A stretch of DNA of 64,000 bases from Ruminococcus sp. (lineage in GTDB: Bacteria; Bacillota; Clostridia; Oscillospirales; Ruminococcaceae), in the NCBI RefSeq assembly GCF_017464355.1, contig NZ_JAFUAG010000017.1, forward strand, positions 62,001 to 126,000, in the 5' to 3' direction. Under the pieces are notes generated by a model. It worked only from the letters and a program-made list of their open reading frames with translations, ran no database searches and was not told the origin of the DNA. The translations under genes and the position numbers were made by a program. Below are positions 28,991 through 47,173 of this stretch, one piece after another (the stretch's first letter is position 1; each line of letters begins with the position of its first letter).

Positions 28991-29155
28991 AGGGGCGGGG
29001 ACAGCGCTGATAATAATGCCTATAATGAGCTGATAATTCAGCTGACAACGGTGTATGACGAGCTTCCCGACCTTGAAGATATCACGGCGGGATTTGAACT
29101 GAGCCATGATGAGAACACAGCAGGAGAGCGCATAGTTTTCGGCGGAGAAAGCTGA
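28991..29155 (+). pseudogene. C-terminal gene remnant
   Basis: An open frame of 54 codons reads as ordinary protein ('QLTTVYDELPDLEDITAG', 'TAGERIVFGGES') and ends in TGA at 29153. It has no usable start codon or ribosome binding site; a TAA immediately precedes it. Composition and codon use match neighbouring genes. I read it as the tail of a lost gene in the 427-base gap between the anti-sigma gene and rpsL. The parent family is not recognised. Confidence 0.35.
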
Positions 29156-29255
29156 GAAAAGCAAACAGAAAAACTGTGAACAGGAGATAATGACCACCCC
29201 GGCAGGCAAACTGTCGGGGTGATTTGTGATAAGTGTAAAAAATATGTTAAACTGC

Positions 29256-29284
29256 TTGACAGCGGGGCATAATTGATGTATAAT
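29256..29284 (+). promoter_or_regulatory. str operon promoter
   Basis: Consensus TTGACA (29256-29261) and TATAAT (29279-29284), spacer 17, 57 bases before rpsL. Confidence 0.85.
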
Positions 29285-29340
29285 AGTCGAGTACGCTGAC
29301 AATAGGGTCAGTGTAACTATTTGACGAAAGGAGAGAAACC

Positions 29341-29766
29341 ATGCCAACCTTTAACCAGTTAGTAAGAAAGGGCAGAAACGTACTTGCCGACAAGTCCACA
29401 GCTCCTGCACTTCAGAAGGGCTTCAATGCCAAGAAGAAGAGAGTCATCGATCAGAGCTGTCCTCAGAAGAGAGGCGTATGCACCGTTGTAAGAACTGCTA
29501 CTCCCAAGAAGCCTAACTCCGCAATGAGAAAGGTAGCCAGAGTAAAGCTGACAAACGGCTACGAGGTAACTGCTTACATTCCCGGTATCGGCCACAACCT
29601 TCAGGAGCACTCTGTTGTTCTCATCAGAGGCGGAAGAGTTAAGGACCTCCCCGGTGTGAGATACCACATCATCCGCGGTACTCTCGATGCACAGGGCGTT
29701 GCCAAGAGAATGCAGGCAAGATCCAAGTACGGCGCCAAGAGACCTAAGGCAGGCGCTGCCAAGTAA
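29341..29766 (+). CDS. rpsL: 30S ribosomal protein S12
   Basis: 141 residues, the longer Gram-positive form with an insertion before '[21 protein letters not shown]'. S12 sits at the decoding centre of the 30S subunit and monitors codon-anticodon fit. Lys56, equivalent to the E. coli Lys42 streptomycin-resistance position, is wild type, as is the downstream '[17 protein letters not shown]' loop. Start has GAAAGGAG upstream. First gene of the str operon, behind its own strong promoter. Confidence 0.97.
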
Positions 29767-29977
29767 GCTCAAAAGCTTGCAGAAAATGCGGGACAAGCTC
29801 CCGAAAAGATTTAAGGAACAACTCATTGCCGCGTAAAGCGGAGACCACAGTTTTTGTGGAGTGATTAATATATATTTATTGGTAACTCTGCATGGAACTG
29901 ACGGGGCTGTGACGCTGTAAAAGGTGGTCACAGAGCGAGTACCTATGAATTCATTATTTGTGAAGGAGGGAATTAAA

Positions 29978-30448
29978 GTGCCAAGAAGAGGTAGAGTTAC
30001 TAAGAGAGATGTGCTCCAGGATCCTGTATACAACAGCAAGCTGGTAACACGTCTGGTAAACAACATCATGCTCGACGGTAAGAAGGGTGTTGCCCAGAAG
30101 ATCGTTTACGGAGCATTCGAGATCGTAGAGGAAAAGACAGGTCGTCCTGCACTCGAGGTCTTCGAGGAGGCTATGAACAATATCATGCCTGAGCTGGAGG
30201 TAAAGGCTCGCCGTGTCGGCGGTGCTACCTACCAGGTACCTATGGAGGTAAGACCTGACAGACGTCAGACTCTGGGCCTGAGATGGATCACTAAGTATTC
30301 TCGTGAGAGACACGAGGACACCATGAAGGAGAAACTCGCAGCTGAGATCCTCGACGCTCTGAACGGTGTTGGCGGTTCATGCAAGAAGCGTGACGACACA
30401 CACAAGATGGCTGAAGCTAACAAGGCTTTCGCTCATTACAGATGGTAA
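29978..30448 (+). CDS. rpsG: 30S ribosomal protein S7
   Basis: 156 residues, the usual length; S7 nucleates assembly of the 30S head and contacts the E-site tRNA. The N-terminus '[21 protein letters not shown]' and '[19 protein letters not shown]' are typical. The start codon is GTG at 29978, eight bases after GAAGGAGG. A longer reading from 29924 would put 18 atypical residues before the conserved PRRG and is rejected. A 211-base spacer separates it from rpsL. Confidence 0.96.
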
Positions 30449-30469
30449 GAGTATAGAGGAGGATAAATC

Positions 30470-32548
30470 ATGGCAAGAGAATGCAAACTGCAGGATTACC
30501 GTAATATCGGTATCATGGCACATATCGACGCCGGCAAGACAACGACTACCGAGCGTATCCTGTTCTATACCGGTGTAAACTATAAGCTCGGTGAGACTCA
30601 TGACGGTGCTTCCACCATGGACTGGATGGCACAGGAGAAGGAGAGAGGTATAACCATCACTTCCGCTGCTACCACCTGCTACTGGAAGGGCCACAGACTC
30701 AACATCATCGATACTCCCGGGCACGTTGACTTCACTGTTGAAGTTGAGAGATCTCTGAGAGTTCTCGACGGCTCCGTTACCGTTCTTTGCGCAAAGGGCG
30801 GCGTTGAGCCTCAGACTGAGACCGTTTGGCGTCAGGCTGATAACTATAAGGTGCCCAGAATGGTATACGTCAACAAGATGGATATCATGGGCGCTGATTT
30901 CTATAACGTACTGAATATGCTCCACGATAGACTTCAGTGCAATGCCGTTCCCGTACAGCTGCCTATCGGCGCTGAGGATGATTTCAAGGGCATCATCGAC
31001 CTGCTTGAAATGAAGGCATACATCTACTACGATGATCTGGGCAAGGACATCAGATGCGAGGATATCCCCGAGGATATGATGGATAAGGCAGAGCAGTACA
31101 GAGCTGACCTGATCGAGCACCTTGCTGAAGTTGATGATGATCTGGCTGAGAAGTTCTTCGCAGACGAAGAGATCACCATTGACGAAATGAAGAAGGTTAT
31201 AAGAAAGTCCACCATTGCTAACACAATGGTACCTGTTTGCTGCGGTACTTCCTACAGAAACAAGGGTGTTCAGAAGCTGCTGGACGCTATCGTTGACTAT
31301 ATGCCTTCTCCTATCGACGTTCCTCACATCAAGGGCGTTAACCCCGATACAGGTGAGGAGTGCGAAAGAATTTCAGGCGATGACCAGCCTTTCGCTGCTC
31401 TCGCATTCAAGATCGCTACTGACCCCTTCGTTGGTAAGCTGGCATACTTCAGAGTTTACTCAGGTGTGCTGACTGCCGGTTCTACCGTTTATAACTCCAC
31501 CAAGGACAAGGACGAGAGAATAGGCCGTATCGTTCAGATGCACTCCAACGACAGAAAGGACATCGACACCATCTACGCAGGTGATATCGGTGCTGCTATC
31601 GGTCTTAAGAATACTACAACAGGTGATACTCTCTGCGACGAGAAGAACCCTGTTATACTGGAATCCATGGAATTCCCTGAGCCTGTTATCCAGCTGGCTA
31701 TCGAGCCTAAGACTAAGGCAGGTCAGGAGAAGATGGGTATCGCGCTGGCAAAGCTGGCTGAAGAAGACCCCACCTTCAGAACTTATACTTCTGAAGAGAC
31801 AGGTCAGACCATTATCGCAGGTATGGGTGAGCTCCACCTGGAGATCATCGTTGACAGACTGCTGAGAGAGTTCAAGGTAGAGGCTAACGTAGGCGCTCCT
31901 CAGGTTTCTTATAAGGAGACCATCACTAAGGAAGCTAACGTTGACTACAAGTACGCTAAGCAGTCGGGTGGTAAGGGTCAGTACGGTCACGTTAAGATCA
32001 ATGTATTCCCCAACGAGAGCGGTGCAGGCTACGAGTTCGTAAACAAGGTAGTCGGCGGTTCTATCCCCAAGGAGTACATCCCTGCTGTTGACGCAGGTAT
32101 CAGGGGCGCTATGGAAAGCGGCGTTCTCGCAGGCTTCCAGGTAGTTGACTGCAAGGTAGAGCTGTATGACGGTTCTTACCACGAAGTTGACTCCTCTGAA
32201 ATGGCGTTCAAGATCGCAGGCTCTATGGCATTCAAGGAGGCTATGAAGAAGGCTGCTCCTATAATCCTTGAGCCTATCATGAAGGTATCCGTAATAGCTC
32301 CCGATGATTATCTGGGTACTGTTATCGGCGACCTGAACTCCAGACGTGGTCAGATCCTCGGTCAGGAGCAGAGAACAGGTGCTGTTCAGGTTGACGCACT
32401 GGTTCCTCTGTCTGAGATGTTCGGCTACTCCAACGACCTGAGATCCAAGACTCAGGGCCGCGGCCAGTACGCTATGGAGCCTCACAGCTATACTCAGGTT
32501 CCTAAGAGCATTTCTGAGAAGATCATGACTTCCAGAGCAAAGGATTGA
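30470..32548 (+). CDS. fusA: Elongation factor G
   Basis: 692 residues, full length. The GTPase drives tRNA-mRNA translocation after peptide bond formation. G motifs: '[16 protein letters not shown]' (G1), 'RGITITSAA' (G2), 'DTPGHVDFT' (G3) and '[11 protein letters not shown]' (G4). Domain IV and V motifs ('[12 protein letters not shown]', '[15 protein letters not shown]') are intact. AGAGGAGG precedes the ATG; 21 bases after rpsG. This is the authentic EF-G, distinct from the TetM-like paralogue at 34469. Confidence 0.97.
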
Positions 32549-32575
32549 TTTTTGCAAATTTTTTCTTGAAAACTA

Positions 32576-32604
32576 TTGCAAAATCATAAAAAATTTGGTA
32601 TAAT
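32576..32604 (+). promoter_or_regulatory. tuf promoter
   Basis: TTGCAA (32576-32581) and TATAAT (32599-32604), spacer 17, giving tuf an extra promoter inside the str operon. Confidence 0.75.
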
Positions 32605-32693
32605 AATACTACGGTATGTCAGACGAAGCGTTCAGTATACCTGAACGCCGGGTCTACACGAGATCAAAATTTATTTTAAGGAGGAAAATTCCT

Positions 32694-33893
32694 ATGGCAA
32701 AGGCACATTTTGAAAGAACCAAGCCCCACGTTAACATTGGTACCATCGGTCACGTTGACCACGGTAAGACTACCCTGACAGCTGCTATCACCAAGACACT
32801 GGCTATGAAGGGTCAGGCTAAGTTTGAGGCTTATGACATGATCGATAAGGCTCCCGAGGAGAGAGAGAGAGGTATTACTATCAATACCGCTCACGTTGAG
32901 TATGAGACTGATAAGAGACACTATGCTCACGTTGACTGCCCCGGCCATGCTGACTACGTTAAGAACATGATCACCGGTGCTGCTCAGATGGACGGCGCTA
33001 TCCTGGTTGTTGCTGCTTCTGACGGCCCTATGGCTCAGACAAGAGAGCACATCCTGCTGGCTCGTCAGGTTGGCGTTCCTGCGATCGTTGTATTCATGAA
33101 CAAGGCTGACCAGGTTGACGATCCTGAGCTGCTCGAGCTGGTTGAGATGGATATCAGAGATCTGCTGAGCTCTTATGATTTCCCTGGCGATGATACTCCT
33201 ATCATCACCGGTTCTGCACTGGCTGCTCTGAACGCTCCCGATGATCTGAGCGATCCTGCATACGCTCCTATCATTGAGCTGATGAACGCTGTTGACGACT
33301 ACATCCCTACTCCTGAGAGAGATGACGCTAAGCCTTTCCTGATGCCTGTTGAGGATACTATGACCATTTCCGGCCGTGGTACCGTTGTTACAGGTAGAGT
33401 TGAGAGAGGTGTCCTGAACACAGGTGAGACCGTTGAGATCGTTGGTCTGTCTGATGAGAAGCAGTCTACCGTTGTAACAGGTATCGAGATGTTCAGAAAG
33501 ACTCTGGATTCCGCTATGGCTGGTGACAACATCGGCGCTCTGCTCCGTGGTATCACCAGAGATCAGGTTGAAAGAGGTCAGGTTCTTTGCAAGCCCGGCT
33601 CCATTCACCCCCACACTAAGTTCAGCGGTCAGGTTTACGTTCTGAAGAAGGAAGAGGGCGGCCGTCATACTCCTTTCTTCAACAACTACAGACCTCAGTT
33701 CTATTTCAGAACAACTGACGTTACAGGTATCATCTCTCTGCCTGCTGACAAGGAGATGTGTATGCCCGGCGATAACGTAACTATGGATGTTGAGCTGATC
33801 ACTCCTATCGCTATCGAGGAAGGTCTGCGTTTCGCTATCCGTGAGGGCGGCAGAACCGTAGGTTCCGGCGTTGTTACTGCTATCAAAGAATAA
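32694..33893 (+). CDS. tuf: Elongation factor Tu
   Basis: 399 residues, standard length; delivers aminoacyl-tRNA to the ribosome as a GTP complex. G motifs 'GHVDHGKTT', 'RGITINTAH', '[12 protein letters not shown]' and 'NKADQVDD' are present, with the C-terminal '[12 protein letters not shown]'. Start at 32694 follows AAGGAGG; an upstream in-frame extension to 32616 covers the promoter and leader and is not coding. Ends the str operon before a strong terminator. Confidence 0.97.
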
Positions 33894-33917
33894 TTTTTAG
33901 CACACAAGCTTAATATA

Positions 33918-33948
33918 AAAGACCGAGTCCTGCACTCGGTCTTTTTTT
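33918..33948 (+). terminator. str operon terminator
   Basis: Stem AAGACCGAGT/ACTCGGTCTT with loop near CCTGC, followed by TTTTTTT. Confidence 0.9.
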
Positions 33949-33950
33949 GC

Positions 33951-33979
33951 TTGTAATAATGGGATAAATATGGTATAAT
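33951..33979 (+). promoter_or_regulatory. Promoter of the GNAT/GTPase-NYN operon
   Basis: TTGTAA (33951-33956) and TATAAT (33974-33979), spacer 17, immediately behind the str terminator. Confidence 0.65.
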
Positions 33980-33997
33980 GTCAGGGGAGGTGTGACC

Positions 33998-34453
33998 ATG
34001 GCAGAGATAGTATTTCTTGGCGGGAGAACAGAGCTTGTTCCACGGGCAGCCGAATGGTTTTCCAAAAACTGGGGCGTGCCTGTATCGGCTTACCTTGAAA
34101 GCATGGCTGTGATGTCCCCCGAAAGGGCGGTGCCGCGGTGGTATGCAGCAATGGAAAAAGGCCGTATCATCGGGGGGATAGGGGTCATCGAAAACGACTT
34201 TCATGACCGTACCGACCTTTCGCCCAATGTGTGCGCCGTGTTTGTGGAGGAAAGCTTCCGCCGACAGGGGATAGCAGGGCAAATGCTGGAAACTGTCTGC
34301 CGTGATATGCATGAAAACGGCATAGACACCCTCTACCTACTCACCGACCACGACGGCTTTTATGAGCGCAGCGGCTGGTCCCACCTGACCTATGCCAACG
34401 AAAACGGCGGCGGGCGGGCAAAGGTCTATATACATATATACGAAGAAAAGTAA
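33998..34453 (+). CDS. GNAT-family N-acetyltransferase
   Basis: 151 residues. The acetyl-CoA pyrophosphate loop is seen as 'VEESFRRQGIAGQMLETVCRDM' (Arg-Arg-Gln-Gly-Ile-Ala), with the following 'GIDTLYLLTDHDGFYERSGW' strand-helix of the GNAT fold. Start at 33998 has GGGGAGGT seven bases upstream. It ends 15 bases before the TetM-like GTPase gene and probably shares its transcript. The acceptor is unknown; a small-molecule or protein amine is equally possible. Confidence 0.85.
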   Translation: MAEIVFLGGRTELVPRAAEWFSKNWGVPVSAYLESMAVMSPERAVPRWYAAMEKGRIIGGIGVIENDFHDRTDLSPNVCAVFVEESFRRQGIAGQMLETVCRDMHENGIDTLYLLTDHDGFYERSGWSHLTYANENGGGRAKVYIHIYEEK

Positions 34454-34468
34454 GGCTGGTATAATAAT

Positions 34469-35572
34469 ATGAACAAAAAAGCAGTAATAGGCATACTCGC
34501 CCATGTTGACTCGGGCAAGACCACTCTTTCGGAGGCTATGCTCTATAAAAGCGGGGCTATACGCAAGCTGGGCAGGGTCGATCACAAGGACGCTTTCCTT
34601 GATAACAATGCCATTGAAAGGGACAGGGGTATAACAATATTCTCCAAGCAGGCTGTCTTCGACTACGGCGGGGTCAGCTTTACTCTGCTTGACACCCCGG
34701 GACACGTTGACTTCTCGGGGGAGACCGAGCGCACCCTGCAGGTCATCGACGCGGCCATTCTGGTGGTCAGCGGTACCGACGGCGTGCAGTCCCACACCAA
34801 GACCCTCGCCCGCCTGCTGGACAGGTACGATATCCCCACCTTTATTTTTGTGAACAAAATGGATATGGAGGGCGCCCGCAAGGACTTCGTCATGAATTCC
34901 ATCACCGCCGCCCTGGGTGACAGGTGCGTTTCTTTCGCCCAGCCTGCCGAGGATAAGGCGGAGGCTCTTTCGCTATGCACTGAGGAGATGATGGAGGAAT
35001 ATCTGGAAAAGGGCGAAATTTCGGACAGCAACATCATTTCCGCCATTGCCGAGCGCAGGCTGATACCCGTGTGCTTCGGCTCAGCCCTCAGGCTTGAGGG
35101 TATTGAAGCCATGCTGGACTGCATTTCAAGATATATCCCCCTGCCCGAGGAAAAGGCCGAGTTCGGGGCAAAGGTCTACAAGATATCCGAGGACGGCGGC
35201 GCCAGGCTCACCCACATGAAGATAACGGGGGGGACACTGTCTGTCCGTGACAGCCTGACCTATATCGACCGTTCGGGGGAGGAGGTCGCTGAAAAGGTGG
35301 GCAGGATAAGGGTCTACAGCGGCGAAAAAGCCCGCAATGCCGAAACTGTCACCCAAGGGGAGGTCTGCGCTGTGCCCGGGCTGACGGCCACCTTTGCAGG
35401 CCAGGGGCTGGGCTGTGAGACTACCGATACCGAGCAGCTGCTGGAGCCTGTGCTGACCTATCGGGTCATTGCGCCCCGGGGGGTGGACGACCATACTCTG
35501 CTGGGCAGGCTGCGTATCCTTGAAGACGAAGACCCCACCATGAAAAGTGAATTACAACGAGCTTCTCCATGA
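34469..35572 (+). CDS. TetM/EF-G-like translational GTPase, N-terminal part (frameshifted)
   Basis: Encodes the G domain and domain II of a ribosomal-protection-type GTPase: G1 'AHVDSGKT' (11-18), G2 'RGIT' (53-56), G3 'DTPGH' (75-79), G4 'NKMD' (129-132). The frame runs into a stop just after 'RILEDEDPTMK', the point where relatives continue into domain III. At 35543-35546 there is a run of four A; dropping one A restores a continuous 858-residue protein with the reading at 35547-37046. So this is the 5' half of one gene. The ribosome binding site before the start is weak. Cause may be mutation, sequencing error or a programmed +1 shift. Confidence 0.85.
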   Translation: MNKKAVIGILAHVDSGKTTLSEAMLYKSGAIRKLGRVDHKDAFLDNNAIERDRGITIFSKQAVFDYGGVSFTLLDTPGHVDFSGETERTLQVIDAAILVVSGTDGVQSHTKTLARLLDRYDIPTFIFVNKMDMEGARKDFVMNSITAALGDRCVSFAQPAEDKAEALSLCTEEMMEEYLEKGEISDSNIISAIAERRLIPVCFGSALRLEGIEAMLDCISRYIPLPEEKAEFGAKVYKISEDGGARLTHMKITGGTLSVRDSLTYIDRSGEEVAEKVGRIRVYSGEKARNAETVTQGEVCAVPGLTATFAGQGLGCETTDTEQLLEPVLTYRVIAPRGVDDHTLLGRLRILEDEDPTMKSELQRASP

Positions 35573-37046
35573 GGTAACAGTGGCGCTCATGGGCGAGGTG
35601 CAGGCTGAGGTGCTGCGCCGTATCGTCAGCGAAAGGTTCGGCATGGATATCGAACTGGGCGAGGGGCGCATATCCTACCGTGAGACCATTGCAGAGCCTG
35701 CGGAGGGTGCAGGCCACTTCGAGCCTTTGCGCCATTATGCGGAGGTACACCTGCGCCTTGAACCTCTGCCCAGGGGCAGCGGGCTGGAATTCTACAGCGA
35801 TTGCAGCGAGGATATCCTCGGCAGGAACTGGCAGCGGCTCATACTCACCCACCTGAAAGAACGCACCCACCGTGGTGTGCTGACCTGCTCGCCCATAACC
35901 GATATGCGCATTACCCTGACCGCAGGCCGTGCCCACATCAAGCATACTGAGGGCGGCGATTTCCGTCAGGCTACCTACCGTGCGGTAAGACAGGGTCTGC
36001 GCAAGGCGAAAAGCGTGCTGCTGGAGCCTTATTATGCTTTCAGGCTGGAGATACCCTCCCAGAACCTGGGACGTGCCCTGAACGACCTTGACCGCATGGG
36101 CGCCCGCACCGAGCCCCCCGACTCGGACGGTGAGAACGCTGTTATCACGGGTACTGCACCGGTTTCAAAGCTGCGGTTCTATCACACTGATGTGGCGGGC
36201 TACACCAAGGGTCTGGGGCGGCTGACCTGTCGGGCGGCGGGGTATGATATCTGCCATGAGGCCGAGGCTGCCATTGCTGAGATAGCCTACGACCCCGACA
36301 GCGACACCCGCAATTCGGCGGACTCTGTGTTCTGCTCCCACGGGGCAGGGCATATCATACCCTGGGACGAAGCTGATGAGTATATGCACGTCAGCCCCGA
36401 AACAGGCAGGCGGCAGTACCAGCAGGCGGAAGAGGTTCGCACACGTGCAGTGGACTTTGTCCGCCGTGCCGTGGCGGACGAGGAGCTTATGGCTATATTC
36501 GAGCGCACCTACGGTGCTATCGGCCGCAAAAAGCGCTATGCCATGCGCACCCCCAAGGAGGCGGAAAAGTCCAGGGCAAAGCCCCGCCCCGTGCCCACAG
36601 GGCCTGAGTACCTGCTGGTGGACGGCTACAATATTATCTTCGCCTGGGACGACCTGAAAAAGCTGGCGGACAAAAGCCTTGACCTGGCCCGCAGTCAGCT
36701 TGTCAACCGCCTGAGCAGCTTTCAGGGGTACAGGGGCTGTGAGCTTATCATCGTGTTTGACGCCTACCGTGTGAAGGAGCCTGAGCATATCGACACCGCA
36801 GGCAGCGTCAGCGTGGTGTACACCAAGGAGGCCGAAACAGCCGATACCTACATCGAGCGCACCGCCCATAAGCTGGCAAAGGAACACCGTGTAACAGTGG
36901 CCACCTCCGACGGGCTGGAGCAGGTGATAATCATGGGCAGCGGCGCCAGAAGAATGTCCGCCAGCGACCTGAGATACGAGGTGGAAGCCTCGGAAAGGGC
37001 AGTGCGGGAGTACATTGAAAAGCTCAACTCAAAGAAGCTTAGGTAG
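35547..37046 (+). CDS. TetM/EF-G-like GTPase domains III-V fused to NYN (YacP/Rae1-like) nuclease domain (frameshifted 3' part)
   Basis: Continues the gene at 34469. 'VNYNELLHEVTVALMGEVQAEVLRR' is the domain III motif of TetM-type proteins, followed by domains IV and V to roughly residue 640 of the joined protein. In domain IV the TetM loop that displaces tetracycline (YSPVSTP) is replaced by 'IKHTEGGDFR', so tetracycline protection is unlikely. After a linker, residues ~713-840 form an NYN domain: 'YLLVDGYNII', 'LIIVFDAY', 'ETADTYIER' and 'VTVATSDG' supply the four acidic residues of the PIN-like active site. B. subtilis YacP/Rae1, the same domain, cuts mRNA in the ribosomal A site. Confidence 0.85.
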   Translation: MNYNELLHEVTVALMGEVQAEVLRRIVSERFGMDIELGEGRISYRETIAEPAEGAGHFEPLRHYAEVHLRLEPLPRGSGLEFYSDCSEDILGRNWQRLILTHLKERTHRGVLTCSPITDMRITLTAGRAHIKHTEGGDFRQATYRAVRQGLRKAKSVLLEPYYAFRLEIPSQNLGRALNDLDRMGARTEPPDSDGENAVITGTAPVSKLRFYHTDVAGYTKGLGRLTCRAAGYDICHEAEAAIAEIAYDPDSDTRNSADSVFCSHGAGHIIPWDEADEYMHVSPETGRRQYQQAEEVRTRAVDFVRRAVADEELMAIFERTYGAIGRKKRYAMRTPKEAEKSRAKPRPVPTGPEYLLVDGYNIIFAWDDLKKLADKSLDLARSQLVNRLSSFQGYRGCELIIVFDAYRVKEPEHIDTAGSVSVVYTKEAETADTYIERTAHKLAKEHRVTVATSDGLEQVIIMGSGARRMSASDLRYEVEASERAVREYIEKLNSKKLR

Positions 37047-37232
37047 AACTGTAGTTAAATAATTCATTTGTTAACAGAATGTTTACAATCGTCTAGTCAC
37101 TTTGGGTGATGTGCATGGGGGAAAAACAGTGTATAATACATACATAAGGTAAAGAGAACAGAGCCAAGTTCCCGATACCGACTATTACTTATGATTTTTA
37201 CTACTTTTAACCCGACTTTATAAAAAAACAGG

Positions 37233-37280
37233 ATCGAGCTCAAAAGTCGATGTCGAGGACTTTTGAGCTCGATTTTGTTT
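37233..37280 (+). terminator. Strong terminator after the GTPase-NYN gene
   Basis: Perfect 16-bp stem ATCGAGCTCAAAAGTC/GACTTTTGAGCTCGAT with a nine-base loop, then TTTGTTTTG. It stands 187 bases after the stop; the spacer holds a lone TATAAT at 37132 without a good -35 and no open frame of note. Confidence 0.88.
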
Positions 37281-37310
37281 TGCCCCGACGGGCTTGCGGA
37301 TAGCATTATA

Positions 37311-37341
37311 AAAGACCGAAGGCTGCGTGCTTTCGGTCTTT
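37311..37341. terminator. Terminator of the beta-helix dockerin gene
   Basis: AAAGACCGAA/TTTCGGTCTTT stem with ten-base loop; T-rich on both strands, so it can work in both directions. Confidence 0.8.
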
Positions 37342-37345
37342 TTGT

Positions 37346-39979
37346 TTATGGTATGGGACGTATGCCTTTAAGGGCTGCGGCCATTGTCATAAGGTCCTGC
37401 ACATCTATGGCACCGTCACGGTTCAGGTCTGCACGAAGCTCATAGGTGGGGTCGGGAAAAGCTCTGATAGATTTAACGTGGGCGGCCAGCATGGTAAGGT
37501 CGCTGATATCCAGAGCGCCGCTGTGGTTGATATCCCCTTTTTCATACTCCTCTTCTTCATCGTCCTCACTGTAGGTCTGGTCGGTGACTATCTCTATCCT
37601 GCCCAGCTTGAAGTCGTTGAAGCTGTAGCTTTCGTTACCTGCGTTGGGGTCGGGGATAAGGCTGTAGCTGTCAAGCACTGTTACGGTATAAGGGCTTGTA
37701 CCCTCGCGGAGGATATTGCCCTCACTGTCAGCAATGACAGCATCGTTGCCCTCGGCATCACGGATATTTCCCGCACAGCGCAGGTCATCAAGGGTGCAGT
37801 CGCCTGTTATGACCCAGTTGGAATTTTCTTCGATGTTCATGGATATGCTGCCCCGTTCGCCGTAAAGTTCTCCTGCGGAGTAGCTTTCGGGGGCACCTGT
37901 GTAGGTGGAATAATCTGTCAGGTATATCTCCAGCTTGCTCAGGCTGTCGCAGCCAAGCCTGCCTGACAGAACCTGCCGCATGAGAGTCAGCCTGCATTCC
38001 GAGCCGCCGCTGCCCTCACGTCCCCAGCCCCAGCGGGTGGGGGAAGATGAACAGTTGACCAGATAGCCGTTGTTTTCGGTGTTTAGTTCTGTTCCGAACA
38101 GTATAACCTCGCTCTTGCAGTTGGTGGTGAAGATCACATCACCATTGGAATTTACGCTGCCGTCCTCCAGATAAAGCCTTGAAAGCTTGCCCACAGGCCC
38201 GAAATCGCTGCTGCCGCAAAGCACAGCGGCCGCATCAAGGCCGTCAGGTGCATCGGTAACATCGGTGGAAAGGGTGCAGTCATAAAGGTACATCATGCTG
38301 TTCTCGGCCACCCTGACGGCCTCGGAATTACCGCCGCTGAGGGTAGCGACCTTAACGGCTATGACAGCCTCGGATATGGCAGCAGGGGAGTCGTACCCTG
38401 CCGCAGAGAAGCTTCCGCCGCTGATGACCATATTTCCGCTGCCCCTTTCAGCATAAATGGGGCTTGAAGCCGAGCCGTCGGTGGAGATATCTATATCCCA
38501 CCCGAAGACCGAGCCGTTCTTTCCCGACCTTACGCCGCAGCAGCCGTCGGTATCATTGGTAAGCACCATATCCTGCAGGTCTATGCGGCCATTGACTACC
38601 GCAAAGCTGTCGTCCGCAGGGTCAAGGGCTTCGTTGTCGGCAAACAGGGTGTCGGAGGAATTCGTCACGCTGATAAGGTCGTGGTCGTCCTCGGCGGCAC
38701 CTGTGAAATGCAGGGTGTTACCCTTGACCTTTATGCCGTTAACATCGTCCATGGCAATGCAGGTGCCCGGGATATTCAGGGTGTTGTTCTCAATGCGCAC
38801 ACCCTCCACCTTGTAATCGTACTTTGTCAGGTCGCCCTGCTGTATCAGCTTGCCGAAAAGCTTTATGCCCACAGGCGAGGGGCGCTTTTCGGTGACGGCG
38901 GCTGTTATGGTGTTGCCTGTGATGAGGGTGTTAAGGTTGTTGTTCAGCCTTTTGAGGATATCTATGCTGTCGTCCACAGGGGCATAGTAGCCTGTGTTGT
39001 CCTCAAAGGGGGACATATTCCGCATTATTATGCCGCTGCCCACGTTATCCATGGTGTTGTTTTTTATGGTGAGATTTTTGTAGCTCTGGGTGAGTATGGT
39101 ACAATCCTCGATATTTGTGAAGGTGTTGTCCTCAATGAGAAAGTTTGTGAAATAGCTGCCCAGGGTGGCCGAATGGGAGCCTATGCCCCTCATTACCTCG
39201 TGGAAGCTGTTGTTCCGTATGATGACGTTCGTGCAGCTGGTGTCGTCAAAGGGCTCAAATCCCCCGAAGAGGTTCTCGCTGTTCATCATGTCGAACTGTA
39301 TGGCCTCTTTCAGCTTGGTGCCGCGGTAGTCCGAGAAATCGCAGCCCTCAACGGTAACGTTCCGTATGCCTCCCAGTTCAAGGTGATGTGCATTAAGGTT
39401 GCCCTTGAAAGCAACATTCTTCACCAGCAGGTTGGTCATGTGGCCAAATTTTGCATTGGAAAAATCAGCCATTTCGCTGTTGCCGTTGCCGTCTATGCAG
39501 CCCCCCTCGATGATGATGTTGCGGGCATCGTTAAAGCCGCCGACCCTGTCAGGCTGGGCATTTCTTATCATGCAGCCGCTGCGCACATAGTCCTTGCGGA
39601 GGGTGGCACCGTTCATGACAAGATGTGTGTTTGAGTAAACGTACAGCGTCTTGTTTATAGAATAGACCCCCGCAGGCAGCACGACTTTCACCTGCACTGT
39701 ATCGCTGGCATTGTAGCTTGCCACCGTCAGGGACTTCTGTATGGCAGCTGTAGCGTCGGTGGCGCCTGTGTTGTCGGCATTGTTGTCATCAACAGCGTTT
39801 ATCGTGATGACCTGCTTGTACTTTACAGGCAGGTAGCCCTTCACCCCCGCTGCACCCGTTATGCCGTCATAGTTGAAGGCAAGGGCACGTATCTCCCCCG
39901 AGAAAGTCTCTGCACCGCCCAGCGCCATAGCCAGTACCAATAATAATACCGGCAGGCGGCGAAAAATATTTTTATCCAT
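37346..39979 (-). CDS. Secreted right-handed beta-helix protein with dockerin
   Basis: 877 residues. Signal peptide 1-~34. Residues ~60-560 show the repeating short strands of a parallel beta-helix ('NVTVEGCDFSDYRG', 'NLTIKNNTMDNVGSGII', 'VRIENNTLNIPGT'), the fold of pectate lyases, polygalacturonases and related polysaccharide lyases. The N-terminal 'NADNTGATDATAAIQKSL' is the pectate-lyase-3-like opening. A dockerin with more divergent Ca loops ('GDINHSGALDISDL', 'ADLNRDGAIDVQDL') ends the protein (~811-876). Likely a cellulosome enzyme or binder acting on pectin-like polymers; I could not identify catalytic residues. Only a poorly placed GGAG precedes the ATG. Confidence 0.82.
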   Translation of the reverse strand: MDKNIFRRLPVLLLVLAMALGGAETFSGEIRALAFNYDGITGAAGVKGYLPVKYKQVITINAVDDNNADNTGATDATAAIQKSLTVASYNASDTVQVKVVLPAGVYSINKTLYVYSNTHLVMNGATLRKDYVRSGCMIRNAQPDRVGGFNDARNIIIEGGCIDGNGNSEMADFSNAKFGHMTNLLVKNVAFKGNLNAHHLELGGIRNVTVEGCDFSDYRGTKLKEAIQFDMMNSENLFGGFEPFDDTSCTNVIIRNNSFHEVMRGIGSHSATLGSYFTNFLIEDNTFTNIEDCTILTQSYKNLTIKNNTMDNVGSGIIMRNMSPFEDNTGYYAPVDDSIDILKRLNNNLNTLITGNTITAAVTEKRPSPVGIKLFGKLIQQGDLTKYDYKVEGVRIENNTLNIPGTCIAMDDVNGIKVKGNTLHFTGAAEDDHDLISVTNSSDTLFADNEALDPADDSFAVVNGRIDLQDMVLTNDTDGCCGVRSGKNGSVFGWDIDISTDGSASSPIYAERGSGNMVISGGSFSAAGYDSPAAISEAVIAVKVATLSGGNSEAVRVAENSMMYLYDCTLSTDVTDAPDGLDAAAVLCGSSDFGPVGKLSRLYLEDGSVNSNGDVIFTTNCKSEVILFGTELNTENNGYLVNCSSSPTRWGWGREGSGGSECRLTLMRQVLSGRLGCDSLSKLEIYLTDYSTYTGAPESYSAGELYGERGSISMNIEENSNWVITGDCTLDDLRCAGNIRDAEGNDAVIADSEGNILREGTSPYTVTVLDSYSLIPDPNAGNESYSFNDFKLGRIEIVTDQTYSEDDEEEEYEKGDINHSGALDISDLTMLAAHVKSIRAFPDPTYELRADLNRDGAIDVQDLMTMAAALKGIRPIP

Positions 39980-40074
39980 TGCTCCATTTTACCCCCGCAT
40001 ATATCAGATAATGGCGCCAAAATGCGCCGTACAGAACTATTATACCAAATTATGAACAGGATGTCAACTTGTGA

Positions 40075-41358: not shown

Positions 41359-44300
41359 TTACTCGCTCTTCTTGTCTGCCGAAACAGGGGCAGCCTCGAA
41401 GATGAACTTTACCTCGCCCTTGGTGCCCTCGGCCTTGCCTGAGAAATTGTCGTAAGCAAGACTTGCCTCTTTCAGGGCGTCAAGCCTGTCAAGGAGAGGT
41501 GTTATGTCGTCGTTGTAGGCATTGATTATCTTGTCTATGCCCTCCCTGCGGAATTTCTTCATGCCGCTGTCAAGCTCCTTGGCGCCGTCTTCAAGCTTCT
41601 GGGTGCCGTCCTTAAGGGTAACGGTGCCCTCGCTGAGGGTGGTTATGCCTGCGTACAGCGTACCGCTGCCGTCGGAAAGCTGCGCTGCGCCCTCGTAAAG
41701 CTGCTCGCTGCCTGTGGAAACAGAGTAGGTGCCATCCTTAAGGGCGCTGCCCCCCTGCCACAGCTGCCCAAGACCGTCATCAAGGGACTTAGCTCCCGAG
41801 GACAGCTGTGTAAGACCCTCCTGCAGGCTGCCCATGCCGCTGTTAAGATCATTAGCCCCTGTGTGGGCGGAGGTTATGCCCTCCGAAAGGTCGTGAGCCC
41901 CTGTGGAAAGTGTGCCTGCGCCCTCTGCCAGCTGCTTGCTGCCGTCGGTGAGCTTGCCTGCACCGCTGACCATTTCCACAATGCTTGAAGCCAGGGTGCC
42001 TGTGCCGCCCTTAAGGCTCTCGCCGCCCTTTGCCAGTTCGGCCAGACCTCCATCAAGAGAAGTTGTGCCATCGGAAAGCTGTGTCAGGCCACCCTGAAGC
42101 TGGCCTGCGCCCTCATCAAGGTCTTGCGCACCTTTGGAAGCTGTATTTATGCCCTTGGCAAGATCATCGGCACCCCTGCTCAGATCCCCCGAGCCTGCGG
42201 CCAGTGCGTGTATGCCCTCAGAAAGGCTTACCGCACCTGTGTCAAGCTGAGTTATGCCGTTGAACAAAGTGTCCGAGCCGACTTTAAGCTGAGATGAACC
42301 CTCAGCCAGCTGACCCAGGCCTGCCGCCAGAGCCTGTGCGCCCTCGTCTGCCTCGGTAATGCCTGCCTGCAGAGCCCCTGCGCCCTCATCAACGTCCTTA
42401 GCTCCTGCGGAAGCTGTGGTCAGACCCTCAGCCAGCGAACCTGTGCCTGCGGAAAGCTGGTCAGCACCTGTTACAAGGTCATTGCTGCCTGTTTTGAGGT
42501 TTGCCGCCCCTGTGGACACTTGTGCTGCCCCTGCGGCCAGCGACTTCGAGCTTGTGTACAGCGAGCCTGCCCCTGCGGAAAGCGCCTTTCCGCCTTCGTC
42601 CAGTGCAGCCAGCCCCGTATCGAGAGCCTGCGCACCTGTTACCAGCTGTGAAGCACCTGTCTGTAAATTTTCAATGCCTGTTGTCAGGGCGGCGGTGTCC
42701 GCCGATACCTGTGCTGAACCGTTTGCCAGACCTGCGGCTATCTGCTCCTGCTGGGTGATAGTTGCCGTCAGGGTGTTTATCATGTTGGCTATGTCATCGC
42801 CGGGGTTTGCTGCGTATACCTGCTGCAGGCCTGCCAGCACCTGTCTGTTGTATTCTATGGTAGCGTAAAGTCCGTCGGAGGCTGTGGTCATGGACTGGGA
42901 AACTGTACCCAGCTTCTCGGGAAGTTCGGCTGCCCCTGCGGCCAGTTCATCAATGCCGCCCGAAAGCGCCTGGGCTCCTGCCAGCACCTGGGCTGAGCCC
43001 TCCTTGGAGGAGGTTATGCCCGCACTGAGTTCTCCTGCGGAGGTACTCAGCTGGCCTGCCCCTGCGGAAAGCTGTGTTGAGCCTGTGGCCACACCTGCGG
43101 CGCCGTTGTTCAGCTCTGCGGCACCTGCTGCCAGATTTTTCGAGCCTGCTGCCACTTTCTTTGCGCCGCTGTCCAGATCGGCCGCGCCCTTGTCAGCACC
43201 TGCTATGCCTGTTGAAAGCTGCTCGGTGCCTGCCTTAAGGCTGTCAGCACCCTCTTTGAGAGCCTTGGTGCCCTCGGCCAGCTTGTCAGCGCCCTCCTTG
43301 GCGGAATCAATGCCCTCGTCCAGTGACGCAGCTCCGTCTTTCAGGGACTTGCCGCCCTCTTTCAGCTTGTCTGCGCCGTCCTTAAGGTCATCGGCGCCCT
43401 TGGCGGCGGTATCAGCTCCCTCTTTGAGATCCTTTGCGCCCTCGCTGAGTTTGCCTGCGCCCTCGTCTGCGGAGGCAAGGCCTGCTGCCAGTGCGGCGGT
43501 GCCGTCCTTAAGGTCGGCAGCACCCTTGTTTACCTGAATGAAGCCCTCTGTCAGCTTGCCCGAGCCTGTCTTGGCGGCCTTTATGCCCTCCAGAAGCTTC
43601 TCTGCGCCCTCATCAAGGGTCTTGGTGCCTGCTTCAAGCTTGTCAGCACCCTCGGCCACCTGTCCTATGCCGTCATCAAGATCGCCTGCGCCCTTAGCCA
43701 GTGCAGCTGCGCCCTCGTCCAAAGCCTTTGCCCCCGTATCGGCGGCAGCAAGGCCGTCTGCCAGCTGGGTGGTACCTGTTTTCAGCTTGCCCGCACCGTC
43801 GTTCACCTGAACGAAGCCTGCTGTCAGGGCGTCGCCGCCGTCTTTTGCGGCCTTAATGCCATTTAACAGAGTGCCCGCACCCTCATCGAGAGTCTTTGTG
43901 CCGTCAGCCAGCTGAGAAGCACCATCTGTCAGGGACTTTGCACCGTCGTCCAGCTGTTTGCCGCCGTCTGCCAGTTTTGCCGCGCCGTCACTGAGGTCGC
44001 CTGCGCCCTTGTTCAGCTCCTTGGCACCGTCATAGAGTTTATCTGTGCCGTCAGAAAGCTTATCCACAGCGTCAGCCAGATCACCCAGCTTATCCTCCAG
44101 CTCATCAAGGCTGTCTATGCCGTCAAAGTCCACATCGTTGAAGAAGCTGTTGGTGCCTGCGGTGAATACCGTTTTCAGCTCAAAGTCGGTGACATCGGCG
44201 GAGAACTCGAAGTATTCGGGTATGTCGATATCCGTCTTGTCAGCCAGACCCAGAGACTCCTTCAGACCGGGGAGAGCGTAGCCTATGACCGCCTGTCTGT

Positions 44301-45003
44301 CTCCGTCAGAGATGACCTTGCCGTTAGTTACCGTAACGTTTCTGAACTTCTCGCTGTCAAGCAAAGCACCTGTAGCCATAAGGAAGGGTGTGTAGATATC
44401 TTCGTTCCTGCCGTTTATCTTGACGGTGGTCTTTGAGTTGTTTATATAGTCGTATCTCACAGTGACCTTGCCGCTTTTGCCTGCCAGCTCCTCGGGAGAA
44501 ACTGCGGCGCCGTTCAGGGTATAGCTGACCTTCATCTGCACAGGCAGGGCGGCATCGGTATAGCCCTTGTAGTAGATATCCCCGCCCTTAGCATTCCAGG
44601 ACATCTCATCGCCGCTGCCCGTATAGCCGTCATCGGTCTTGACATTTTCTATCTCGGTGAGTATGGAAGCGTCAAGCAGTGCCTGAGCCCCTGTGGGGTT
44701 CACAAGGTGGTCGCTGACGATGGTCTTTGTCGGGTTTCCGTTTGCGTCTGTAAGCACATAGACAGTTTCCTCCTTGCGGGGGGTGGTGCTGTCATCTTCA
44801 GCGGAAGTCTTCCCGCTTTTCTTTTCACGCTTGTTTATCCTGGCGGGAGTATAGTCATCGTCCTCGTCCTTTGTTTCAGCGGCCTTTGAAGAAGTGTCCT
44901 CCGCTTTGGTGTCTTCCTTGTTGGCCACAGCATACAGCCCTGTGGAGCCTGCCGAGATAAGTACTGCCAGTACACCTGCCATTAATCTGCCGTAATTTTT
45001 CAT
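41359..45003 (-). CDS. Giant Leu-x-x-Gly heptad-repeat surface protein (YhgE/Pip-associated type)
   Basis: 1214 residues. An N-terminal signal/anchor helix (~5-25) and an acidic linker precede a ~220-residue globular region. From ~320 to ~1150 nearly every seventh position fits x-x-x-Leu-x-x-Gly ('LSDGAAKLADGGKQLDDGAKSL'). Such repeats occur in YhgE/Pip phage-infection proteins and in partners of MMPL exporters, and are thought to form long helical or rod structures outside the membrane. Larger modules of ~98 residues recur, e.g. 'GIKAAKDGGDALTAGFVQVN' and 'GIKAAKTGSGKLTEGFIQVN'. Encoded 58 bases after the MMPL gene, so it is probably that exporter's extracellular partner. No C-terminal membrane helices, unlike YhgE. 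Confidence 0.8.
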   Translation of the reverse strand: MKNYGRLMAGVLAVLISAGSTGLYAVANKEDTKAEDTSSKAAETKDEDDDYTPARINKREKKSGKTSAEDDSTTPRKEETVYVLTDANGNPTKTIVSDHLVNPTGAQALLDASILTEIENVKTDDGYTGSGDEMSWNAKGGDIYYKGYTDAALPVQMKVSYTLNGAAVSPEELAGKSGKVTVRYDYINNSKTTVKINGRNEDIYTPFLMATGALLDSEKFRNVTVTNGKVISDGDRQAVIGYALPGLKESLGLADKTDIDIPEYFEFSADVTDFELKTVFTAGTNSFFNDVDFDGIDSLDELEDKLGDLADAVDKLSDGTDKLYDGAKELNKGAGDLSDGAAKLADGGKQLDDGAKSLTDGASQLADGTKTLDEGAGTLLNGIKAAKDGGDALTAGFVQVNDGAGKLKTGTTQLADGLAAADTGAKALDEGAAALAKGAGDLDDGIGQVAEGADKLEAGTKTLDEGAEKLLEGIKAAKTGSGKLTEGFIQVNKGAADLKDGTAALAAGLASADEGAGKLSEGAKDLKEGADTAAKGADDLKDGADKLKEGGKSLKDGAASLDEGIDSAKEGADKLAEGTKALKEGADSLKAGTEQLSTGIAGADKGAADLDSGAKKVAAGSKNLAAGAAELNNGAAGVATGSTQLSAGAGQLSTSAGELSAGITSSKEGSAQVLAGAQALSGGIDELAAGAAELPEKLGTVSQSMTTASDGLYATIEYNRQVLAGLQQVYAANPGDDIANMINTLTATITQQEQIAAGLANGSAQVSADTAALTTGIENLQTGASQLVTGAQALDTGLAALDEGGKALSAGAGSLYTSSKSLAAGAAQVSTGAANLKTGSNDLVTGADQLSAGTGSLAEGLTTASAGAKDVDEGAGALQAGITEADEGAQALAAGLGQLAEGSSQLKVGSDTLFNGITQLDTGAVSLSEGIHALAAGSGDLSRGADDLAKGINTASKGAQDLDEGAGQLQGGLTQLSDGTTSLDGGLAELAKGGESLKGGTGTLASSIVEMVSGAGKLTDGSKQLAEGAGTLSTGAHDLSEGITSAHTGANDLNSGMGSLQEGLTQLSSGAKSLDDGLGQLWQGGSALKDGTYSVSTGSEQLYEGAAQLSDGSGTLYAGITTLSEGTVTLKDGTQKLEDGAKELDSGMKKFRREGIDKIINAYNDDITPLLDRLDALKEASLAYDNFSGKAEGTKGEVKFIFEAAPVSADKKSE

Positions 45004-45061
45004 AAGATCATTCCCTTTTCTATATATAATTGGTCTTGCCTGAGTTTTGTCATGCTGCACA

Positions 45062-47173
45062 TCAGCTGTGCTGTACCGCAGCCTTGAAGCCCTTTTCCCT
45101 TTTGGCCACACTGCCCATGCCGAAGGTCGAGTGTATTATCACCTTATCGAACAGCAGCAGCATGGAGGGCAGCGCGCATATTACCGTTACCATGGATATC
45201 AGTGCGCCCCTTGACATCAGTGTACACAGCTGGGATATCATATCAATGCTGGAATATACCCCCACACCAAAGGTCGAGGCGAAAAATCCCAGGGCGCTTA
45301 CCATTATGGATTTCATGGAGGTTGACAGCGCTATGGTGACAGCCTCTGTCTTATCCCTGCCCTCAAGTCTTTCCTGCTTGTATCTGGTGGTCATGAGTAT
45401 GGCATAGTCAACCGTTGCGCCCAGCTGTATGGTGCCTATGACCACCGAGGCTATGAAAGGTATGGTGGTATGGGTAAAGCAGGGAACTGCCATGTTCACG
45501 GTGATAGCAAATTCTATAACTGCCACCAGTATGACGGGCAGCGAGAAGGACCTCAGGGCTACCATTATAATAATGAATATGGCCGCAATGGAAACTGTAT
45601 TTACCACCGCGAAGTCACGGTCGGTTATGCGTATGAGGTCCTTGGTGGCGGCGGCCTCGCCGATGACCATGCCCTTGTCATCGTAGGCTTTCAGTATGTC
45701 GATAAGCTCATCGACCTGGGCGTTTACCTCGGGGGAAGCCACTTTGTAGTCCGAGCCCACCAGCATCATCTGCCAGTCGCCGCTTTTAAGTATGCCGCTG
45801 ACCGACTCGGGTATTGCCTCCTCGGGTATGGAAGAACCTATGAGCGTATCAAAGGCCATGGTCATGGAAACGCCGTCAACCTCGTCCATTTCGTTCATCA
45901 TCCTGACCACGTCCTTGCGGGGCATATCAGACCTGCACATTACTATATGGGTGGAGGATATATTGAACTCCTCCTCCAGCTTGGCATTGGCTATAACGCT
46001 GTTGAGGTCTTCGGGCAGGGTGTCTGTCAGGTTGTAGTAGACATCTGTGTGGGTCTGCCCGTAAACTCCGGGTATCAGCAGGGCGATGAACAGTGCCACG
46101 AATGCCCAGTGGTGCTTCACGATGAAGCCTGAGGCCTTGTCAAGGCTGGGTATGAAGTCACGGTGTATGGTCTTCTCCAGCGCCTTGTCGAATACGAGTA
46201 TCATGGAGGGCAGAACTGTAACACAGCATATAACACCGATGACAACGCCCTTTGCCATAACTATGCCCATATCCAGGCCGAGGGTATAGCTCATAAAGCA
46301 CAGCGCCAGAAATCCTGCTACGGTAGTTACCGAGCTTGATACAACGGAAGAAATGGTCTTTGCGATAGCCTCAGCCATGGCCTCGCCGCGGTCGGAGAAA
46401 TTCTCCTTCTGCTCCTTGTAGCTGTGCCACAGGAAGATAGAGTAGTCAATGGTAACAGCCAGCTGTAGCACTGCTGTCAGCGCCTGGGTGATGAAGCTTA
46501 TCTCCCCCAGGAAGATATTGGTGCCCAGGTTGTAAAGTATAGCCAGCCCCACGCTTGCCATGAAGAAAACGGGTATCAGCAGTGAGTCCATAGTAACTGC
46601 CAGTATTATGCTGGTGAGTATGACCGCTATGCCGACATAGGCAGTGGTCTCTTTCATGGTCAGGTCTTTAATGTCCTCAACTATGGCGGTCATGCCGTTG
46701 ATGAAGCAATGCTCGCCCGCTATCTTTCTCATCTCAACGACAGCATCCAGTGCCTCATCGGAGGAGGTGGCCTTATCGAAGAATATAGCCATCATGGTAG
46801 CGTCGCCCTCATCGTTGTTGAAGAAGTCGTAGATGTCCTCGGGCAGGACTTCCTTGGGTATGGAGATATCTGCTATGCTGTTGTACCACAGCACCTCACT
46901 GACGGTATCTACCTTTTCAAACTCAGCTTTCAGCTGTGCCACCTGCTTGTCGTCCATGCCCTCGACCACTGCAAAGGCAAAGCCGCCCTTGCCGAATTCG
47001 TCAAGCATTATCTGCTGACCCTGCATGGTGTCGATATCATCGGGCAGGTACGAAAGTATATCGTAGTTTATCCTGGTCTTTATCATACCCATGGTCGCGG
47101 GAACTGCCAGCACCAGCGCCAGTATGAATATGAACACATGGAGCTTTACAACTCCCTTTCCGAAACGTTTCAT
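45062..47173 (-). CDS. MMPL/RND-family transporter
   Basis: 703 residues with the RND layout: TM1, a ~150-residue outer loop, five TM helices, then the same arrangement repeated from ~345. The MMPL signature is seen in both halves, 'LQLAVTIDYSIFLWHSYKEQ' and 'QLGATVDYAILMTTRYKQE', with Asp-Tyr in the proton-relay helix. Family members export lipids, peptides or drugs using the proton gradient. AAGGATAAC precedes the ATG. First gene of a two-gene operon with the Leu-x-x-Gly protein, divergent from a TetR gene, so substrate-induced expression is likely. Confidence 0.93.
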   Translation of the reverse strand: MKRFGKGVVKLHVFIFILALVLAVPATMGMIKTRINYDILSYLPDDIDTMQGQQIMLDEFGKGGFAFAVVEGMDDKQVAQLKAEFEKVDTVSEVLWYNSIADISIPKEVLPEDIYDFFNNDEGDATMMAIFFDKATSSDEALDAVVEMRKIAGEHCFINGMTAIVEDIKDLTMKETTAYVGIAVILTSIILAVTMDSLLIPVFFMASVGLAILYNLGTNIFLGEISFITQALTAVLQLAVTIDYSIFLWHSYKEQKENFSDRGEAMAEAIAKTISSVVSSSVTTVAGFLALCFMSYTLGLDMGIVMAKGVVIGVICCVTVLPSMILVFDKALEKTIHRDFIPSLDKASGFIVKHHWAFVALFIALLIPGVYGQTHTDVYYNLTDTLPEDLNSVIANAKLEEEFNISSTHIVMCRSDMPRKDVVRMMNEMDEVDGVSMTMAFDTLIGSSIPEEAIPESVSGILKSGDWQMMLVGSDYKVASPEVNAQVDELIDILKAYDDKGMVIGEAAATKDLIRITDRDFAVVNTVSIAAIFIIIMVALRSFSLPVILVAVIEFAITVNMAVPCFTHTTIPFIASVVIGTIQLGATVDYAILMTTRYKQERLEGRDKTEAVTIALSTSMKSIMVSALGFFASTFGVGVYSSIDMISQLCTLMSRGALISMVTVICALPSMLLLFDKVIIHSTFGMGSVAKREKGFKAAVQHS

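Follow-up and report, generated by a model that had tools for sequence, protein, structure and literature searches.

A translational GTPase fused to a Rae1-like NYN domain in Ruminococcus sp. and other Clostridia, probably a ribosome-targeted mRNA-cutting factor

Elongation factor EF-G and the tetracycline ribosome-protection protein TetM enter the ribosomal A site with domain IV. Rae1 (YacP) of Bacillus subtilis is reported, in the available parts of three papers (PMC12320835, PMC10100781, PMC6613710), to be an endonuclease cleaving messenger RNA (mRNA) in the A site. The architecture uniting a Tet-like GTPase with an NYN domain was published by Atkinson in 2015 (PMC4342817) from ten clostridial species; in the part of that paper available to us, the proteins were filed as Tet proteins, with a guess at antibiotic resistance or cleavage of ribosomal RNA (rRNA). 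Here, we analysed such a fusion located at positions 34469..37046 (+) of a window of 64,000 nucleotides, i.e., the whole stretch of DNA that was studied, from Ruminococcus sp. (contig NZ_JAFUAG010000017.1, positions 62,001 to 126,000). An earlier note made from the sequence knew of similar database entries but of no described function; the architecture itself, published in 2015, is not new. Sequence comparison points to a probable role in ribosome-targeted cutting of mRNA rather than in tetracycline resistance. No paper on its function was found in the literature searched, a scope outside which the Rae1 papers of 2017 and 2018 lie; as far as that literature shows, the new elements are the clade with its unfused sisters, the mutual exclusion with Rae1, the scores short of the family cut-offs and the mechanism derived from these results.

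The first frame (34469..35572, +, 367 amino acids, aa) encodes a translational GTPase domain (residues ~1-225, with the P-loop, DTPGH and NKMD motifs; GTP_EFTU, expect value (E) 2.4e-50) and domain II (EF-G_D2, E 3.9e-05, under its cut-off). The second frame (35547..37046, +, 499 aa) encodes domains III-V, a tail, a linker and an NYN_YacP nuclease domain (EFG_IV, E 3.3e-21; EFG_C, E 1.6e-15; NYN_YacP, E 2.4e-47). These Pfam matches lie where the earlier note had placed the two parts and bear out the domain make-up that it had read, a TetM/EF-G-like GTPase with an NYN domain. The two frames overlap at 35547-35572, where an alignment of related loci showed the relatives to be continuous. The GTPase and NYN parts lie in a single uninterrupted open reading frame (ORF) at 15 of 16 related loci, the 16th (L024) beginning at a contig edge, and the single-ORF relatives were called at 836-1153 aa, the longest of them having additional residues before the GTPase. 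The joined protein assumed by the note is thus one ORF in the relatives, whereas in this assembly it is two overlapping frames. The GTPase-NYN fusion is real.

The NYN_YacP domain (36612..37034, +) covers model positions 1-144 of the 166 of PF05991 and passes the family cut-off of 24.6 bits, with 161.5 bits in the second frame and 165.7 bits in the genome search, where it was the sole NYN_YacP match in the window's genome assembly. The domain matches the solved B. subtilis YacP/Rae1 structures 5mq8 and 5mq9 at E ~4.5e-29, in agreement with the likeness proposed in the note. Four Asp codons, read from the sequence, start at 36621, 36759, 36843 and 36909 (+), and all four residues are present in the window copy. 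The catalytic residues, whose loss in homologues would have told against the note's reading, are kept: three Asp columns are complete in 109/109 fused rows and one in 108/109, and each is complete in the 33/33 stand-alone rows, the first column having belonged to the pattern that selected the fused rows and not being independent evidence.

The distribution was assessed in 393 genomes sampled from the class to which the window belongs; an NYN_YacP match was present in 250 of them. A profile of GTPase domains IV-V and the tail (A2, threshold E <= 1e-40) matched 167 genomes; four of them (G414, G168, G141, G419) were Tet-like or divergent by score, which left 163, namely 135 fused and 28 unfused, G241 with its short frame among the latter. 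Fused status was judged by open-frame length and NYN presence, not by protein-by-protein reading. Full-length homologues with both domains in one protein, on which the note's reading depended, therefore occur in 135/393 genomes of the class. In a draw from the phylum, searched for the GTPase only, 18/249 genomes matched: the frame was 857-909 aa long in 15 of them and 651 and 657 aa in two, and the remaining match was the split copy of the window. At least 596 relatives were confirmed in a scan of titled genome contigs. Among the best 80 of these, the named ones are of Clostridia type, and many are rumen and gut members of Ruminococcus, Oscillospiraceae or Lachnospiraceae; a full-length fused row was obtained from 72 of the 80 loci.

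The strongest evidence for the fused NYN domain doing the job of Rae1 is that the two forms exclude each other. An intact stand-alone NYN_YacP protein was found in 1/135 fused genomes vs 112/255 others (Fisher p ~2e-24, uncorrected for kinship); the test leaves out G194, whose fused copy is truncated by the end of a contig, G299, which has a fragment of 27 aa, and G324, which has a true stand-alone protein. The sole fused genome with an intact stand-alone protein is G322 (174 aa), and three further fused genomes (G158, G212, G246) carry partial matches under the cut-off. Families f36, f37, f41, f42 and f61 each mix fused and stand-alone-only genomes, none with both above the cut-off, which suggests repeated replacement. 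The unfused GTPase was found in 21/115 genomes with a stand-alone NYN (115 by the first stand-alone calls) vs 7/143 without NYN (p 0.001), which is weak Rosetta-stone support.

Two observations concern further NYN_YacP genes. The fused genome G408 carries two fragments of a second such gene (L090, L094), as if a stand-alone Rae1 were decaying there. In G324 and G384 (L238, L240), the stand-alone gene directly follows a frame that by eye is an RlmB/YacO-like methyltransferase, the same gene order as that reported for yacO-rae1 of B. subtilis.

The phylogenetic analysis of the GTPase was based on 34 of the 62 fused rows, 25 unfused rows and four Tet-like rows, with eight EF-G-like outgroup rows left out; rows had been told apart from the outgroups by the domain-IV tip motif. 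The fused rows grouped together in a single clade (100/100) within a grade formed by the 25 unfused GTPases, none of which fell inside that clade, and the four Tet-like rows grouped outside all of them (100/100). As the unfused GTPases share the domain-IV tip and the tail with the fused proteins, this nesting indicates a single fusion event. The unfused proteins end right after the tail (36270..36392, +; SVFCSHGAG..W..MH), which indicates that NYN was added behind a complete GTPase via the poorly conserved linker (36393..36605, +; mean top-residue share 0.25 in 62 fused rows). In the tree based on the NYN domain, 32/33 stand-alone rows separated from the 55 fused rows, the split being weakly supported (59/92).

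The exception, inside the fused group, is a stand-alone row from G247 (loci L242 and L231), whose own GTPase is unfused and branches among the other unfused ones; its stand-alone NYN looks like a later fission or transfer. As the GTPase exists without NYN, it must serve a function by itself, and no description of the unfused sister was found in the literature searched. One unfused relative, at 3957-5876 of L235 (the Ligilactobacillus salivarius megaplasmid NZ_CP114513), is annotated as a TetM-family resistance protein; in its vicinity, the plasmid carries a copy of rpsN, which encodes ribosomal protein S14, and a gene for a 'putative metal homeostasis protein'.

The GTPase belongs to a subfamily of its own and is neither EF-G nor one of the recognised proteins that protect the ribosome against tetracycline. 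Its G-domain motifs, including the His of DTPGH, are invariant in 72 fused rows. Against the EF-G model TIGR00484 (cut-off 659.4 bits), four fused homologues scored 271-314, three unfused relatives 259-300 and the window pieces 199 and 89.5 bits. Against the tetracycline-protection model NF012153 (cut-off 775 bits), the fused homologues reached 389-438 and the unfused relatives 381-456 bits, and against NF033148 (cut-off 1100 bits) the four fused homologues reached 261-269; the window pieces scored 264.7 (first frame, NF012153) and 143.4 bits in the tetracycline-protection test, also below cut-off. However, L193, a Tet-like outgroup row taken as a control, also fell short of the NF012153 cut-off (606 bits), and a score below it is therefore not enough to exclude resistance. 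The domain IV-V part of the window gave E 1.6e-25 with TetM and E 2e-23 with EF-G.

Domain IV is the best conserved region, with a mean top-residue share of 0.81 vs 0.62-0.68 in the other domains. Its tip loop, HxKHTxGGDFR (35934..35966, +), has HIKHT in place of the YYSPVS of TetM in an alignment with that protein, so the replacement of the TetM loop reported in the note holds. Residues K491, H492, T493, G495, G496, D497 and R499 are invariant in the 62 fused and 25 unfused rows, His489 is present in 61/62 and 25/25 and Phe498 in 62/62 and 24/25; these counts are partly selected, since rows were sorted from the outgroups by the tip motif and the best-80 contig loci were found with it. In all 35 full-length rows fetched by NYN alone (L018-L033 less L024; L064-L083), KHT is present at the tip, and in one of these rows, L026, Ser replaces the leading His. 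The leading His aligns with His573 of Thermus thermophilus EF-G, the residue changed, by its title, in PDB entry 1fnm.

A structure was predicted with AlphaFold2 for the intact homologue L095, using the 72-row alignment. The model (mean predicted local distance difference test (pLDDT) score 88, predicted template modelling score 0.70) has an EF-G-like body and a mostly confident NYN fold, with strands in the tail (619-630) and a low-confidence helix (644-681); the 50 best Foldseek matches shown were all EF-G or EF-2 type structures. The earlier note had set the NYN domain in the A site, which the prediction does not support: NYN is left on a floppy tether behind a disordered linker of low pLDDT, and because of this disorder we claim no placement for it. 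By rough arithmetic, the linker of ~70 residues could span the distance from domain V to the decoding centre.

We give about an even chance to the reading that the fusion is a GTPase-delivered Rae1 cutting mRNA on stalled or paused ribosomes, the Rae1-type endonuclease having been fused once. In its GTP form, the protein would dock at the factor-binding site once the A site of a ribosome has been empty too long, and domain IV with its KHTxGGDxR tip would probe or clear the A site of the 30S subunit. Domain IV would withdraw when the GTP has been hydrolysed, and the tethered NYN domain would reach the vacated A site and cut the mRNA, which would start mRNA decay and open the ribosome for rescue, e.g., by transfer-messenger RNA (tmRNA). 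A hand-over after GTP hydrolysis is proposed because domain IV and NYN presumably cannot occupy the A site at once. Both halves exist alone, so neither strictly needs the other, and the fusion would add targeting or timing. The analysis establishes the domain make-up, the intact motifs, the single fusion event and the near-complete mutual exclusion with stand-alone Rae1, whereas we infer the mode of ribosome binding, the order of the steps, the substrate and the physiological trigger. Possible, though rather doubtful, is that the protein is a GTPase-gated endonuclease in which GTP hydrolysis would license the cut. With its own domain IV filling the 30S A site, the nuclease would cut after a timed hand-over in the same ribosome or, as the bolder alternative, in the A site of an adjacent ribosome that has collided with it; it would then differ from RelE toxins, SmrB, MutS2 and stand-alone Rae1 in being a collision-linked factor of mRNA quality control.

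Several points weigh against the reading of the fusion as a GTPase-delivered Rae1. The window copy is frame-broken as sequenced, and its NYN match ends at model position 144, while the listed stand-alone matches reach nearly to the end of the model. Among the 393 genomes, 143 have no NYN_YacP match at all, and in 28 the GTPase occurs without the fusion, 7 of these being without any NYN_YacP match; the co-occurrence of unfused GTPase with stand-alone NYN comes mostly from family f52 (14 of the 21). Domain IV and NYN, moreover, would presumably compete, as they could not share one A site, and residues 685-704 of the L095 model, before NYN, have pLDDT under 50 and form a disordered linker. The disorder and poor conservation of the linker also fit a different view, in which the GTPase does its own job on the ribosome and merely anchors the Rae1 domain nearby, the nuclease acting like free Rae1, without GTP gating. 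The separate occurrence of both halves (28 genomes with the unfused GTPase, 113 read as having stand-alone NYN) is likewise in its favour; nevertheless, the single fusion was kept throughout the sampled fused clade, which suggests that the coupling is useful, and we consider mere anchoring rather unlikely.

Protection against tetracycline or another A-site drug with an added RNase step, as suggested by Atkinson in 2015, is more improbable still. It would agree with the TetM-type labels of kin in public records, with the missing EF-G insert of ~45 residues, which TetM and TetO also lack, and with the NCBI tet_protect model being the best-scoring curated one. Yet the score is under the cut-off of that model, by a wide margin in the four fused homologues (the Tet-like L193 also misses it), the YYSPVS tip is replaced, and the loci have no conserved neighbours or mobile context. 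The argument of the earlier note against a resistance role is accordingly supported by the replaced tip and by scores far below the tetracycline-protection cut-offs. Equally improbable in our view is that the NYN domain cuts rRNA or transfer RNA instead of mRNA: Rae1, the nearest relative to have been characterised, is reported in the available parts of the papers cited above to be an A-site mRNA endonuclease, and the fused form stands in for Rae1 in genomes.

The frame break of the window is either a sequencing or assembly error or a recent private mutation. The ratio of non-synonymous to synonymous substitution rates is ~0.03-0.08 on either side of the break, as compared with five sister copies (synonymous divergence 1.1-2.0, rough; one ratio undefined), and purifying selection on the NYN part looks as strong as on the GTPase part. 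A long-standing pseudogene is unlikely, the selection signatures being intact on both sides. Programmed frameshifting was rejected, since the break does not recur at the same place in the relatives, whose copies are single-frame there. Further split or broken fused copies are present elsewhere (G083, G273, L100 and L103, the last frame-broken inside NYN).

The gene directly upstream, outside the factor, encodes a GNAT acetyltransferase (33992..34453, +; Acetyltransf_7, E 2.7e-10). Farther upstream lies a cluster of the rpsL-rpsG-fusA-tuf type (29341-33893, +), a neighbourhood common only to a few close relatives (3-4 loci per gene). Downstream, an ORF of 877 aa (37346-39979, -) by eye resembles a beta-helix repeat protein with a dockerin-like C-terminus, and another of 1250 aa (41359-45111, -) consists mostly of short 'LxxGAxxLxxG'-type repeats. 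When genes within 4 kb of the factor were clustered across 129 loci, no conserved neighbour and no conserved mobile or resistance context emerged; the largest cluster, ABC-transporter-like by eye, comprised 10 loci. Rfam gave no match in window positions 29000-40000. The fusion is also present on two unverified 'Bacteriophage sp.' metagenome scaffolds, L236 and L237 (MT835563, MT835514), which look like misfiled bacterial DNA. Seven of the ten ORFs sampled from them match Pfam families, including AddB, FeoB and a tRNA synthetase, and no phage structural family was found among the ten; as the families matched are bacterial housekeeping ones, the scaffolds give no evidence of phage carriage.

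If the proposed function is true, the fusion would be an mRNA-cutting factor brought to the ribosome by its own GTPase, and a common one (135/393 sampled genomes of the class); to our knowledge, no other factor of this kind has been described. Public records name its kin TetM/TetW/TetO/TetS-family proteins or 'translation factor GTPase family protein', and the resistance names can inflate resistome counts.

Compared with the known systems, the fusion shares with Rae1/YacP the NYN_YacP domain and the same acidic columns. Rae1, however, is a stand-alone protein of ~170-180 residues (a 181-residue chain in B. subtilis) without a GTPase, whereas the fused domain sits behind an EF-G-like GTPase and, in the window, lacks the last 22 model positions. 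With TetM and TetO, the fusion shares EF-G-like domains without the EF-G insert; it differs from them in its tip loop, its own tail, the NYN domain and scores far below the curated cut-offs. EF-G structures are its best Foldseek matches and the tip His aligns with His573, but the insert is absent, the tip loop is its own and the EF-G cut-off is missed. The unfused sister GTPases (frames of ~618-730 aa) have the same domain-IV tip and tail and are without the linker and the NYN domain. The clostridial Tet-NYN proteins of Atkinson (PMC4342817), as the available part of that paper describes them, are Tet-like GTPases with a YacP-like NYN domain in Clostridiales, and the fusion is of this type, the likeness being one of architecture.
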